43,324 bases of DNA, from NCBI GenBank assembly GCA_036000965.1, contig DASYUT010000263.1:1-43324 (forward strand), written 5' to 3'. The notes under the pieces were generated by a model. That model did not search any database and was not told the DNA's origin. It saw only the letters and a list, made by a program, of their open reading frames with translations. This DNA comes from Actinomycetes bacterium. Lineage in GTDB: Bacteria; Actinomycetota; CALGFH01. Shown piece after piece: positions 10,940-26,145 of the stretch. Numbering within the stretch: position 1 is the stretch's first letter; every line of letters begins with the position of its first letter. The position numbers were made by a program, and so were the translations under genes.

Positions 10940-10941
10940 TG

Positions 10942-11046
10942 CGGGCGGGCGCACCCCAGGCGGTGCCCGGGGGGGAGGGGCGCCGGGCGCGGGCGGGCGC
11001 ACCCCAGGCGGTGCCCGGGGGGGAGGGGCGCCGGGCGCGGGCGGGC
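10942..11046. repeat. 48-bp tandem repeat between truB and ribF
   Basis: Two near-identical 48-bp units sit here (GCACCCCAGGCGGTGCCCGG begins at 10951 and at 10999), and a third copy starts but degrades. The inner GGCGGTGCC and the preceding GGCGCACC-like bases can fold on themselves. The repeats are open in the ribF frame, but ribF most likely starts after them. Confidence 0.8.
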
Positions 11047-11081
11047 GCGCCCGGGGCGGCGTGCGGGCAGGTGGGGCGCTG

Positions 11082-17078: not shown

Positions 17079-18359
17079 ATGGCCGGGTCCGGATCAGGTG
17101 CCTTCGAGCGGACCGAGCTCGCCGGGGGCCTGCGAATCCTCACCGAGCGCATGCCCAGCGTGCGCTCGGTGGCGCTCGGGATCTGGGCCGGCGTGGGGTC
17201 CCGGGACGAGACCCCACGCCTGGCCGGCGCCTCCCACTACCTCGAGCACCTGCTGTTCAAGGGCACCGCGCGCCGCTCGGCGCAGGAGATCGCCGAGGTC
17301 ATGGACGCGGTGGGCGGGGAGATGAACGCCTTCACGTTCAAGGAGTACACCTGCTTCTATGCCCGCACGCTCGACCGCGACCTGCCGCTCGCGGTCGACG
17401 TGCTGGTCGACATGGTGCGCGCCTCCAGGCTGGCCAAGGTCGACGTGGACGCCGAGCGGACGGTGATCCTCGAGGAGATCGGCGCGGCCAACGACGTGCC
17501 CGAGGACCTGGTGCACGACGTGTTCGCCGAGGTGCTGTTCGGCGGGCACCCGCTCGCCCGGCCCGTGCTCGGCACGGTCGAGTCGATCCAGGCCATGACG
17601 CGCGACGCCCTCGCGCGCTACTGGCGGCGCCACTACACCCCGGGCAACCTGGTGGTGGCCGCGGCCGGGAGCTGCCGGCACGACGAGGTGGTCGAGCTGG
17701 TCGGGGGGGCGTTCGGCGACCTCGAGGCGGGCGGCGCGGCCGGCCCCCGGGTCGAGCGCAAGGAGCCCAGGTTCGCCGGGGGCGTGCGCGTGCGGCGCAA
17801 GCCCACCGACCAGGCCCACGTCGTGCTCGGCTGCCCGGGCATGTCACGGTCGGACCCGCGCCGGTTCGCGCTCGGTGTGCTGAACATCGCCTTCGGCGGC
17901 GGCATGAGCTCACGGCTGTTCCAGGAGGTACGCGAGAAGCGCGGCCTGGCCTACTCGATCGGCTCCTACACCGGCCAGTACTCCGAGACCGGGTCGTTCG
18001 CGGTCTACGCCGGGACGGCGCCCAAGCGGATCCACGAGGTGCTGCGGGTCGTCGGCGAGGAGACCGAGCGGGTGGTGGCCGACGGGCTGACCGAGGAGGA
18101 GCTCGAGCGGAGCAAGGGGCACTTCAAGGGCTCGCTGGTGCTCGGGCTCGAGGACACCTCGAGCCGGATGTCGTGGCTCGGCAAGTCGGAGCTGACCCGC
18201 GGCGAGATCTTGTCGGTGGACGAGGTCATCCGGCGGGTCGACGCGGTCACCGAGGCCGACGTGCGCGCAGTGGCCAAGGAGATCCTGGGCGGGGGCCCGC
18301 GGGCCCTGGCCTTGATCGGCCCGTTCGACGCCGAGGGCTTCGAGGAGTACGTGGCGTAG
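17079..18359 (+). CDS. M16-family zinc peptidase (processing-peptidase type)
   Basis: A 426-aa M16 peptidase of the kind regularly found after pnp in Actinomycetota and Firmicutes. The inverted zinc motif HYLEH is at 53-57 (His53, Glu56 catalytic base, His57), and the third ligand is expected at Glu132/133 in the VILEEI stretch. The N-terminal peptidase domain (about 10-160) is followed by the C-terminal M16 domain (about 180-360) with GGGMSSRLFQEVREKRGLAYS, the usual second-domain signature. There is no signal peptide, so it is cytoplasmic. ATG 17079 follows the pnp stop closely, suggesting co-transcription. The substrate is unknown. Confidence 0.92.
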   Translation: MAGSGSGAFERTELAGGLRILTERMPSVRSVALGIWAGVGSRDETPRLAGASHYLEHLLFKGTARRSAQEIAEVMDAVGGEMNAFTFKEYTCFYARTLDRDLPLAVDVLVDMVRASRLAKVDVDAERTVILEEIGAANDVPEDLVHDVFAEVLFGGHPLARPVLGTVESIQAMTRDALARYWRRHYTPGNLVVAAAGSCRHDEVVELVGGAFGDLEAGGAAGPRVERKEPRFAGGVRVRRKPTDQAHVVLGCPGMSRSDPRRFALGVLNIAFGGGMSSRLFQEVREKRGLAYSIGSYTGQYSETGSFAVYAGTAPKRIHEVLRVVGEETERVVADGLTEEELERSKGHFKGSLVLGLEDTSSRMSWLGKSELTRGEILSVDEVIRRVDAVTEADVRAVAKEILGGGPRALALIGPFDAEGFEEYVA

Positions 18360-18470
18360 GAAAGGCGTGGAGTCCTTCGGACGGTCGGGCGGAGCAGGCG
18401 GGAAAGGCGTGGAGTCCTTCGGACAGCCAGTTGAACCAGGCTGGAACGGCGAGGAGTCCGCAAGCGGACG
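18360..18470 (+). repeat. 42-bp repeats with small palindromes before the LOG-family gene
   Basis: GGAAAGGCGTGGAGTCC recurs at about 18360 and 18402, and a third unit degrades from about 18444. Each unit carries a small palindrome, GTCC-TTC-GGAC in the first two and GTCCGC-AA-GCGGAC in the third. The units are open in the frame of the downstream gene (protein AWSPSD twice) and run straight into it. Confidence 0.7.
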
Positions 18471-19132
18471 ATCGTCTGACTCAGACCGGCAAGCTCGCCG
18501 GTCTGTCGGTCTGCGTGTTCTGTGCGTCCGCGCACGGGTTGCCCGAGGAGTACCACCGGGCCGCGCGTGAGCTCGGGCGCGAGCTGGCCCGGCGCGGGTG
18601 GCAGCTCGTCTACGGCGGCGGTGATGTGGGTCTGATGGGGGAGGTGGCCCGGGCCGTGCACGAGCACGGCGGCCGGGTCTTCGGGGCGATCCCGCGCGCC
18701 CTGGTCGAGCGCGAGCTCGCCTACGGCCCGGCCGACGAGCTGGTCGTGACTGAGACCCTGCGCCAGCGCAAGGCCGAGATGGACGCAAGGGCCGACGCGT
18801 TCGTCGCCCTGCCCGGCGGGTTCGGCACCCTGGAGGAACTGCTCGAGGTGATCACGCTGCGCCAGCTCCGCCTGCACGACCGGCCGATCGTGCTGCTCAA
18901 CACCAGCGGCTACTACGACCCCTTCCTGGCCATGGTCCGGGCCATGGTCGAGCAGGGATTCGTCGCGGCCGGCGAGGGGGGGCTGTTCGAGGTCGCCGCC
19001 ACCCCCGCCGAAGCGCTCGACCTGGTCGAGGCCGCGATCGCGGCGGGCGCCGGCCGGACCACGGCGCTCGGCGAGCCCCCCGCCGAGGCCCTGGCCGAGG
19101 ACTGGACCGCGGAGCTGCCAGCCTCCCAGTGA
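18431..19132 (+). CDS. LOG-family protein (TIGR00730; cytokinin riboside 5'-monophosphate phosphoribohydrolase-like)
   Basis: A Rossmann-fold nucleotide hydrolase of the LOG family, whose members cut purine nucleoside monophosphates at the base-sugar bond. Motifs: SVCVFCAS (first strand), GWQLVYGGGDVGLMGEVA, and PGGFGTLEELLEV with the conserved Pro-Gly-Gly-x-Gly-Thr loop near 128. The start is uncertain: no ATG or GTG precedes the first strand in frame. I use TTG 18431, which yields 233 aa with a 25-residue repeat-derived leader; CTG 18476, with GAGGAG about 20 bases upstream, is the other option. The frame is open further upstream through the 42-bp repeats. The C-terminus is acidic and Ala-rich. 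Confidence 0.75.
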   Translation: MNQAGTARSPQADDRLTQTGKLAGLSVCVFCASAHGLPEEYHRAARELGRELARRGWQLVYGGGDVGLMGEVARAVHEHGGRVFGAIPRALVERELAYGPADELVVTETLRQRKAEMDARADAFVALPGGFGTLEELLEVITLRQLRLHDRPIVLLNTSGYYDPFLAMVRAMVEQGFVAAGEGGLFEVAATPAEALDLVEAAIAAGAGRTTALGEPPAEALAEDWTAELPASQ

Positions 19133-22065: not shown

Positions 22066-22178
22066 GAGGCGCGCGAGGCCCGTCTGCCTGAGGCGCGCGA
22101 GGCCCGTCTGCCTGAGGCGCGCGAGGCCCGTCTGCCTGAAGCGCGCGAGGCCCGTCTGCCTGAAGCGCGCGAGGCCCG
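22066..22178 (+). repeat. 24-bp tandem repeat upstream of dapB
   Basis: Four full copies and a partial fifth of a 24-bp unit (starting GAGGCGCGCGAGGCCCGTCT) begin at 22066, 22090, 22114, 22138 and 22162. Copies four and five have GAA for GAG at the start. The unit length is a multiple of three. A -10-like TATCCT (22201-22206) for dapB lies just after it. Confidence 0.9.
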
Positions 22179-22248: not shown

Positions 22249-23067
22249 GTGCGGGTGGGCGTGCTGGGAGCGACGGGCCGGATGGGCCAGGCCACCTGCC
22301 GGGCGGTCCTGGCCGCCGGCGACCTCGAGCTCGTCGCGGTGGTGGCCCGTTCGACCGCGGTCGGGCGTGAGCTGCGCACCGTCATACCCGAGGCGCCGCC
22401 CGACCTCCTGATCGGCCAGGATCTCTCCGACGTGATCAGCGCCGAGGTCGACGTGGTGGTGGACTTCTCGGCCCCCGACGCCACCATGGCGGCCGCCCGG
22501 ACCCTGCTGCCTGAGGCGATCCACCTCGTCTCGGGAACGACCGGCCTGCCCGACGGGGCCATGGAGGAGCTTGCCTCTCTGACCAGCGACGACGAAGGCG
22601 GCAACGCCGTGTGGGCACCCAACTTCGCGCTCGGCGCGGTGCTCGCCATGCACTTCGCGGCCATCGCGGCCCGCTTCTACCCGGGGGAGATCATCGAGGA
22701 GCACCACGCGGCCAAGGCCGACGCGCCCTCGGGCACCGCCATCCGGACCGCCCACGCCATCGCCGCCGCGCGGGCGGCCGCGCCTCCCGCCCGCGCGGGC
22801 GCCGGTCCTCCCACCCACCCTGGTCGGGAGCTCGCCCCAGGTGCGCGCGGGGCCGAGATCGACGGGGTGCGGGTGCACTCGGTGCGCCTGCCCGGTCTCG
22901 TCGCCCACCAGGAGGTCGTGTTCGGCGGCCAGGGCGAGCTGCTGACCGTGCGCCACGACTCGCTGGACCGGGTCTCGTTCATGCCCGGCGTGCTGCTCGC
23001 GGTCCGCGAGGTGCCGCTCAGGCACGGCCTCACCGTCGGCCTGGAACCCCTGCTGGGCCTGGCATGA
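22249..23067 (+). CDS. dapB: 4-hydroxy-tetrahydrodipicolinate reductase
   Basis: DapB reduces 4-hydroxy-tetrahydrodipicolinate with NAD(P)H in the lysine and diaminopimelate pathway, which feeds the cell wall. The product is 272 aa from GTG 22249 with GAGGAG at 22234-22239. The nucleotide-binding motif GATGRMGQA is at 7-15, and the catalytic region EEHHAAKADAPSGTA places His152/His153 and Lys156. The stretch about 175-200 (Ala/Pro/Gly-rich) is longer than usual between the catalytic motif and IDGVRVHSVRLPGLVAHQEV. No other lysine gene is adjacent. The stop overlaps the next ATG (ATGA, 23064-23067). Confidence 0.94.
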   Translation: MRVGVLGATGRMGQATCRAVLAAGDLELVAVVARSTAVGRELRTVIPEAPPDLLIGQDLSDVISAEVDVVVDFSAPDATMAAARTLLPEAIHLVSGTTGLPDGAMEELASLTSDDEGGNAVWAPNFALGAVLAMHFAAIAARFYPGEIIEEHHAAKADAPSGTAIRTAHAIAAARAAAPPARAGAGPPTHPGRELAPGARGAEIDGVRVHSVRLPGLVAHQEVVFGGQGELLTVRHDSLDRVSFMPGVLLAVREVPLRHGLTVGLEPLLGLA

Positions 23068-24776
23068 CCGGGGACGCGACGGCGGCGCGGCCGACCTGGT
23101 GGGTCGAGGAGTTCGACGACGACGAGCGGGCCCGGCTGGAGCCGTGGTTCACCAACGTCGACGGGCCGGTGTTCGCGCTGCGCAACCTGCCCGAGACGGT
23201 CAAGGGTGCGCTGTTCGCCCGCTACTCCCGCACCGGCAAGAGCCTGCGCCGGCTGTTCCTCGATGAGTTCGCCGACGAAACGGAGGCACGCCTTGGCGTG
23301 CCGAACGGGAAACAGAGCTTGGAGGCACGCCTTGGCGTGCCGAGCGGGGAAGAGGACCCGGAGGCACGCCTCGGCGGGACGCGTGGCCCGGCGACCGGGG
23401 ACCGGCGGGCGGCCGCGCTCTACCAGCGGGTGTTCGACGAGTACGGCGACGACTCGATCGCGCAGCTCGGCGGCGCCCACGTCGCCTGCGAGCAGGCCTC
23501 CAACCTGCTCACCAAGGTGCTCGAATGGGGCCGGCTGGCCGCCTACCTCGAGCAGTCGACCCGCTACGTCGCCTACGCCGACCGCCCTGGCGGCCGCTGG
23601 CGCTACCACCTGGACCCGGAGGTGGCCGCCGACGCCGAGCTCGGCCCCGAGTACCGCCGGGTGCTCGACGGGCTCTTCGAGACCTACGCGGAGCTGCTCC
23701 CCGCGCTCACCGGGCACCTCGGCCGGGTCGTGCCCCACGAGGCGGGCACCAGCGAGGCGGCGTGGCGGCGGGCGGTGAAGGCCAGGTCCCTGGACGCCCT
23801 GCGCGGCCTGCTCCCGGCCGCGACCACCTCCAACCTCGGCATCTACGCGACCGGCCAGGCGTACGAGGCGCTCCTGCTGCGCCTGGCCGCGCACCCGCTG
23901 CCCGAGGCACGGACCTGCGGCGAGCTGCTCCTAGCCGAGCTGCGCAAGGTCATCCCGGCCTTCCTGACCCGGGTCGACCGGGACGACCGAGGGGTGGCGT
24001 GGTCCCGTTACCTCGCCCGCACCGCGGCGGAGACCGCCAGGGCGGTCGAGGACGTGCTCGGCCCGGCCCACCTGGGCGAGGAGGGCCCGTCGGTCCGCCT
24101 CACCGAGTTCGACCCGGCCGGCGAGGACAAGGTGCTCACCGCCGTCGCCTACCCGCACGCGGGCGCCGGCGAGGCGGAGGTGGCCGCCCGGGTCGCGGGA
24201 CTGGGCGCCGGCGACCGGGCCCGCCTGCTCGCCGCATACGTCGGCGAGCGGGAGAACCGGCGCCACAAGCCGGGGCGGGCGTTCGAGCGAGCCGTCTACA
24301 CCTTCGACGTGGTGGCCGACTACGGGGCCTTCCGCGACCTGCAACGCCACCGGCTCTGCACGATCGTCTGGCAGCCGCTCACCCCCTCGCTGGGCTACGA
24401 GGTGCCGCCCGACGTCGAGGCGGCGGGCCATGGCGACCGCTTCGAGGCCGCGATGGCCGCCTCGGCCGGCCTCTTCCGGGCGCTCGCCCCCCGCTTCCCG
24501 GCCCAGGCCGCCTACGCCGTCAGCCTGGCCCACCGGATCCGCTTCGCCATCACGCTGAACGCCCGGGAGCTGATGCACCTGGCCGAGCTCCGCTCCACGC
24601 CCCAGGGCCACCCCGCCTACCGGGCGGTGGCGCAGGCGCTGCACCGGCTCGTGGCCGAGGAGGCCGGCCATCGGGCACTGGCCGGCGCCATGCGCTTCGT
24701 CGTCCACGACGAGGTCGGCCTCGGCCGCCTGACCGCCGAGCGACGCCTCGAGGCGAGGCGGGCGCTCGCGCCGTAG
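23064..24776 (+). CDS. ThyX-like double-domain protein (FAD-dependent thymidylate synthase fold)
   Basis: A 570-aa protein that resembles two FAD-dependent thymidylate synthase (ThyX) folds in tandem, a group seen in Actinomycetota and some other phyla beside ordinary ThyX. The first half has NLPETVKGALFARYSR, VFDEYGDDSIAQLGGAHVACE and EWGRLAAYLEQSTRYV. The second half has FDVVADYGAFRDLQRHRLC and the helix MHLAELRSTPQGHPAYR. The true ThyX motif RHRxxSxNxxSxR is only partly kept as RHRLCTIVWQ, so dUMP methylation should not be assumed. Residues about 74-112 are an in-frame insert of three 13-aa repeats. ATG 23064 overlaps the dapB stop, so the two are coupled. Confidence 0.75.
   Translation: MTGDATAARPTWWVEEFDDDERARLEPWFTNVDGPVFALRNLPETVKGALFARYSRTGKSLRRLFLDEFADETEARLGVPNGKQSLEARLGVPSGEEDPEARLGGTRGPATGDRRAAALYQRVFDEYGDDSIAQLGGAHVACEQASNLLTKVLEWGRLAAYLEQSTRYVAYADRPGGRWRYHLDPEVAADAELGPEYRRVLDGLFETYAELLPALTGHLGRVVPHEAGTSEAAWRRAVKARSLDALRGLLPAATTSNLGIYATGQAYEALLLRLAAHPLPEARTCGELLLAELRKVIPAFLTRVDRDDRGVAWSRYLARTAAETARAVEDVLGPAHLGEEGPSVRLTEFDPAGEDKVLTAVAYPHAGAGEAEVAARVAGLGAGDRARLLAAYVGERENRRHKPGRAFERAVYTFDVVADYGAFRDLQRHRLCTIVWQPLTPSLGYEVPPDVEAAGHGDRFEAAMAASAGLFRALAPRFPAQAAYAVSLAHRIRFAITLNARELMHLAELRSTPQGHPAYRAVAQALHRLVAEEAGHRALAGAMRFVVHDEVGLGRLTAERRLEARRALAP
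23282..23398 (+). repeat. Three in-frame 39-bp palindromic repeats in the thyX-like gene
   Basis: Units start at 23282, 23321 and 23360, each opening with GGAGGCACGCC. In units one and two the sequence GGCACGCC-TT-GGCGTGCC is a perfect 8-bp palindrome with a two-base centre; unit three is degraded. The protein reads EARLGVP twice and then EARLGGT. They split the conserved LFLDEFAD and AAALYQRVFDEYGDD segments. Confidence 0.9.
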
Positions 24777-26105: not shown

Positions 26106-26145
26106 GACGACAACCCTAAACCCTAGACGACAACCCTAAACCCTA
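26106..26145 (-). repeat. Tandem 20-bp duplication covering the kgd stop codon
   Basis: On the minus strand the 20-bp unit TAGGGTTTAGGGTTGTCGTC occurs twice back to back (26126-26145, 26106-26125). The first TAG is the kgd stop. Each unit has two TTTAGGG-like words, by chance similar to a plant telomere repeat. Confidence 0.9.

Follow-up and report, generated by a model that had tools for sequence, protein, structure and literature searches.

The in-frame insert in the ThyX-like gene of an Actinomycetes bacterium (lineage CALGFH01, assembly GCA_036000965.1) is probably one member of a small family of dispersed minisatellites, and several such families have probably colonised this genome. The repeats are scattered over the genome, specific to this lineage among the genomes compared, and present in frame within genes, with a bias in both period length and reading frame. 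The insert was found in a window of 43,324 nucleotides, the whole stretch of contig DASYUT010000263.1 that was analysed.

The repeat array and its host gene

The ThyX-like gene is the sole PF02511 gene found in the genome, and the predicted structure of its product matches ThyX structures in a PDB search. The features of the gene and of the insert are as follows.

23064–24776, + strand: ThyX-like gene with two Thy1 domains, host of the insert; ThyX fold in the PDB search
23282–23320, + strand: unit 1, 39 bp, palindrome at 23285–23302, reads EARLGVPNGKQSL
23321–23359, + strand: unit 2, 39 bp, palindrome at 23324–23341, reads EARLGVPSGEEDP, 82% identity to unit 1
23360–23398, + strand: unit 3, which is degenerate and has a broken palindrome; reads EARLGGTRGPATG
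23403–23960, + strand: first Thy1 domain match (profile 36–191), directly after the insert loop
24261–24662, + strand: second Thy1 domain match

Tandem Repeats Finder (TRF) places the array at 23281–23376, with 2.5 copies of a 39-bp unit. The initial annotation described three 39-bp units, each with an 8-bp palindrome. This is accurate for units 1 and 2, in which GGCACGCC-TT-GGCGTGCC is a perfect palindrome with 8-bp arms (23285–23302 and 23324–23341), but the degenerate third unit carries GGCACGCCTCGGCGGGAC, with 3 mismatches. When up to 3 mismatches are allowed, the window contains 5 matches to the palindrome versus 0.44 expected from shuffles, and none of 100 shuffles reached 5. The family can be described as a core, GGAGGCACGCCTYGGCGTGCCGA, with a variable spacer, repeated in tandem. 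Each unit encodes 13 residues, and the reading frame of the Thy1 gene stays open through the array.

The insert is located just before the first Thy1 domain match, in a loop predicted to be disordered. In an alignment of 57 sequences, the stretch that holds the insert, between LFLDEF and the LYxRVF helix, varies widely in length. The AlphaFold model of the protein gives a pLDDT below 50 at residues 79–113, flanked by helices at residues 70–77 and 112–127. The insert therefore extends a permissive loop, and the earlier description of an interrupted conserved segment is not upheld. Counted on the same alignment, the distance from DEFAD to the following ALY is about 19 residues in G001 and about 28 in G002, the two sister genomes, and about 46 in the source genome. 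The frame is kept, as first described, but relative to G001 the protein is longer by a net 27 residues or so, and relative to G002 by about 18, instead of the 39 initially given, because the insert replaces part of the native linker. The insert is absent from both sister genomes and from all other orthologues aligned, so the empty sites looked for in thyX orthologues do exist. The longer disordered loop is probably near neutral for the protein.

Copies of the unit at unlinked loci

The search for further copies found the thyX-type unit at three unlinked loci of the source genome: thyX, the leader of dnaK on contig C186, and contig C346. The dnaK leader matches the thyX unit with 88% identity over 67 bp (DNA search, E=3.3e-17), and C346 was matched with the dnaK pair as query (E=6.7e-6). 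Exact matches to a 16-mer pattern occur in thyX and at one further place only. With up to 2 mismatches the pattern gave 171 matches versus 103 for the reversed control, so only the places with 0 mismatches were used. Among 40 relatives nothing convincing was found, with two marginal matches near E=0.01. A search of the repeat against Rfam gave no match, viral contigs held no exact match to a 22-mer, and no similar DNA was found in plasmids.

The dnaK leader contains two units spaced 38 bp apart, antisense to dnaK and with their start about 25 bp upstream of it. The leaders of dnaK in G001 and G002 are clean empty sites. At L031 2157–2260 (G000:C186), the two palindromic units lie between a promoter-like TTGACA/TATCTT pair and a GAGGTG ribosome-binding site. 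Because the spacers are similar to the native leader of dnaK, the unit might have originated there, but this reading was set aside, as the resemblance involves a few bases. The AftD-like/F5-8C protein encoded on C346 has a C-terminal tail made up of several diverged units, in frame. The tail lies beyond the part of the protein that matches G001 and G002, and the end of the array coincides with an ATGA overlap between this gene and the next. Both coding copies, in thyX and on C346, are read as EARLGVP.

These loci bear on two other explanations. A purely local minisatellite could have grown by slippage within the thyX linker, with no mobility, as in the leuA VNTR of Mycobacterium tuberculosis. 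The tandem structure and the length-variable linker agree with this, G001 has GTCGAGGCC at the equivalent place of thyX, and 254 of the 285 arrays compared in the 0.83 Mb sample lack a partner elsewhere in it, the other 31 having a match. However, two unlinked loci, one of which is intergenic, match the core and its spacer with strong E-values, and the dnaK sites of the sister genomes are cleanly empty. Local slippage is thus already disfavoured, and we regard it as unlikely. The unit could also have a function at the DNA or RNA level, for example as an uptake sequence, a HIP1-like motif or a leader hairpin, and be kept for that role instead of being a selfish repeat. The position of the dnaK copy between promoter and ribosome-binding site, the strong base pairing predicted for this copy, and a swap of the inner pair from C/G to G/C in one C346 unit are consistent with such a role. 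Yet there are three loci only, they are not conserved in the sister genomes, the palindrome is lost in the third thyX unit, and Rfam holds no match; a functional site is highly improbable.

A dispersed family accounts for the three unlinked loci, their absence from the sister genomes and the in-frame copies in genes, and to this extent the view of the insert as a mobile, frame-preserving element of the lineage is partly supported. Since the units showed neither a target-site duplication nor a terminal signature, and no enzyme that would mobilise them was found, we infer mobility from their distribution only.

Minisatellite load of the genome

The density of arrays was determined in 832 kb, 13% of one draft MAG, including the window, and in 100–200 kb of each control genome. 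The set of relatives includes no second genome of the genus; G024, from the same phylum, is a complete genome. At a TRF score of at least 50, the sample holds 381 arrays, whose copy numbers the MAG assembly may misstate, whereas a dinucleotide simulation of equal length held 17 and a Markov-5 simulation of 800 kb held 45. At a score of at least 80, the source genome has 240 arrays per Mb versus 11 in G002, 77 in G001, 100 in G024, 10 in G038 and 50 in G031. For intergenic arrays with a score of at least 120, the figure per Mb of intergenic DNA is 394 versus 0 in G002, 113 in G001 and 219 in G024. Array density alone is not unique to the source genome, because G024 is also fairly rich in intergenic arrays.

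A home-made codon-model gene caller divides the arrays with a score of at least 120 into 71 intergenic and 25 coding. The period is divisible by 3 in all 25 coding arrays and in 30 of the 71 intergenic ones. By the same gene calling, an array is present in 147 of 474 intergenic gaps.

Stems in the array units are like those in shuffled units, apart from slightly more stems of at least 8 bp, and a general palindrome theme among the array units of this genome was rejected. Since palindromes are no general feature of the units, these repeats are better termed dispersed minisatellites, some of them with hairpins.

Further repeats occur in the window.

10941–11059: 48-bp minisatellite, with related arrays at several other sample loci (L189, L190, L179)
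18359–18480, + strand: array of 42-bp repeats with hairpins, located before the LOG gene, a separate family with one partial match elsewhere (C40)
22066–22178, + strand: array of the 24-bp family, core GARGCGCGCGAGGC, intergenic, upstream of dapB; the genome carries this family in at least 44 places
26106–26145: short tandem repeat GACGACAACCCTAAACCCTA with a telomere-like CCCTAAA motif

The LOG-associated units had been noted as similar to those in thyX. The layout is indeed alike, but in DNA searches they did not come up as homologues of the thyX unit. A 70-bp family is present in at least 45 places in the genome. One of its repeats is found at L209 4484–4663 (G000:C166), and the repeat often ends in a GGGGGGAGCGAGCTCCCCCC hairpin. 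At the loci examined, the core matches of this family are all outside called genes.

The 24-bp family inside enzyme genes

The GARGCGCGCGAGGC core occurs at 44.5 per Mb in the source genome (37 matches in 832 kb) versus 0–5.4 per Mb in other genomes, and Markov-6 simulations of the same 832 kb gave 2–6 matches each. The family has no long palindrome, and its unit corresponds to 8–9 residues when translated. In a test that scored the array flanks only, 12 of 35 arrays were inside genes. The hosts include a histidine kinase, a PNKP ligase, a molybdopterin dehydrogenase, a prolyl oligopeptidase, an acyl-CoA dehydrogenase and IleRS, and further a P-type ATPase, a MerR regulator, a GNAT protein, a pseudouridine synthase and PurL. 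Five host arrays fall at gaps against solved homologues.

PurL: gap within 3viu_A
PNKP ligase: gap between residues 112 and 115 of 4drf_A
IleRS (isoleucyl-tRNA synthetase): gap between 847 and 856 of 8c8v_A
Acyl-CoA dehydrogenase: gap between 227 and 234 of 1ukw_A
Pseudouridine synthase: gap between 148 and 153 of 1qyu_A

The array in the molybdopterin dehydrogenase lies between two domains, and the best solved match stops before it.

The sense copies of the family are all in one phase (4/4, read as EAREA), and so are 7 of the 8 antisense copies (ASRAS). On the question whether insertions always keep one frame, the sense copies agree and the antisense copies show one exception. The choice of frame was examined post hoc, and because many units carry a TGA in one of the frames, the sense result was in part bound to arise. 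Most frames stay open in GC-rich DNA, so an absence of stops is by itself little evidence.

Comparison with known repeat systems

The palindromic elements of Rickettsia (RPEs) and Wolbachia are dispersed, lie in frame in conserved enzyme genes as well as in intergenic DNA, and form solvent-exposed inserts (PMC2229807, PMC3767692). The present repeats share in-frame genic insertion and absence from outside orthologues, and they also occur in intergenic DNA. Their dispersal amounts to 3 loci for the thyX family and at least 44 places for the 24-bp family. RPEs are palindromes of 100–150 bp, whereas the units here are tandem repeats of 24–39 bp, and the thyX family alone has a long palindrome; the CGTC end reported for R. 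conorii RPEs is missing here, and the phylum is different. The RPE analogy drawn at the outset thus holds in behaviour, namely in lineage specificity, reading frame and absence from the sister genomes, and not in membership, as the tag, an intact Y1 transposase and the long single palindrome are wanting.

Intragenic REPs with GTAG or CGTC tags, for example in O. terrae, are short hairpins, often grouped, that encode 20–30 residues in coding regions (PMC3733652). The grouping of short hairpin units in coding regions is alike; the difference is that the units here carry no GTRG or CGTC tag and that no intact RAYT was found. At L247 1500–3134 (G000:C31), a locus of IS200/IS605 type, a Y1 match with an in-frame stop adjoins an intact-looking tnpB, and this is the sole Y1_Tnp match in the genome. 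No Y1_Tnp was found in the sister genomes, and no cognate RAYT in the source draft assembly.

A REP- or RPE-class palindromic element moved by a Y1 (RAYT) transposase would explain the hairpin units, their tandem grouping, the GGAG common to the foot of the hairpin in the thyX and dnaK units, and in-frame intragenic copies such as those described for intragenic REPs and RPEs; a Y1_Tnp remnant also exists in the genome. But the foot is not GTAG/GTGG or CGTC, the single, interrupted Y1 gene lies beside tnpB, and most array units in the genome are not palindromic. A RAYT/REP origin was rejected on the interrupted gene and the absent tag, and membership of this class is quite unlikely.

The leuA VNTR of M. 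tuberculosis consists of in-frame 57-bp units in an enzyme gene, and its copy number alters enzyme properties (PMC2704214). It is likewise an in-frame minisatellite in an actinobacterial enzyme gene, but it is a copy-number polymorphism of one gene, whereas the thyX unit also occurs at unlinked loci. Head-to-tail tandem units of 10–100 bp, which define minisatellites and VNTRs, are present here. The MIRU minisatellites of mycobacteria are also dispersed actinobacterial tandem repeats, of other length and sequence. An ATGA stop/start overlap, as at the end of the C346 array, is a MIRU trait, and we know of no MIRU inside catalytic domains.

Transposed satellite families, tandem arrays scattered over a single genome, were reported from Leptospira interrogans, Methanocella conradii and Chloroflexus aurantiacus in a 2019 survey, which describes such transposition as rare in prokaryotes (PMC6749651). 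Here, too, unlinked loci of a single genome carry similar units. The satellites highlighted there are non-coding or of unstated coding status, whereas many copies here are intragenic and in frame. PARCELs are tandem, palindromic, translated and dispersed, and form an amphipathic domain of 25 residues; the ORFs that contain them have no assigned function, and many are membrane-targeted (PMC2996958). The first four properties recur in the present repeats, but in place of the amphipathic domain there are short hydrophilic inserts in enzymes. The array resembles the leuA VNTR in form and the transposed satellites in distribution.

A proposed path for spread and survival

The path would begin with the copying of a unit to a new site by a mobilising or ectopic-copying process. 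Tandem expansion would follow by replication slippage, probably aided by the hairpin where one is present. Selection would then purge the insertions that break genes, so intragenic survivors would lie in linkers and surface loops, with a unit length divisible by 3 and hydrophilic frames, a survivor pattern that is itself seen in this genome. In the dnaK leader, the insertion adds two palindromes capable of forming hairpins between promoter and ribosome-binding site, with a putative regulatory effect.

In-frame mobile repeats in conserved enzymes have so far come chiefly from Rickettsia, Wolbachia and a few REP-rich genomes. Here, several short dispersed tandem families behave alike in an actinobacterial lineage known from a draft genome, and the sister genomes keep empty sites. 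Tentatively, at a little under an even chance, the repeats may represent a genome-wide invasion of an actinobacterial lineage by dispersed translated minisatellites, which entered permissive loops of core enzymes of metabolism and translation in one or two preferred frames, spread other than by a known RAYT or IS, and would be a second, independent counterpart of the Rickettsia elements. The system lets one ask directly by what route non-coding repeats turn into protein sequence, which loops accept them, and what copies units with no known transposase.
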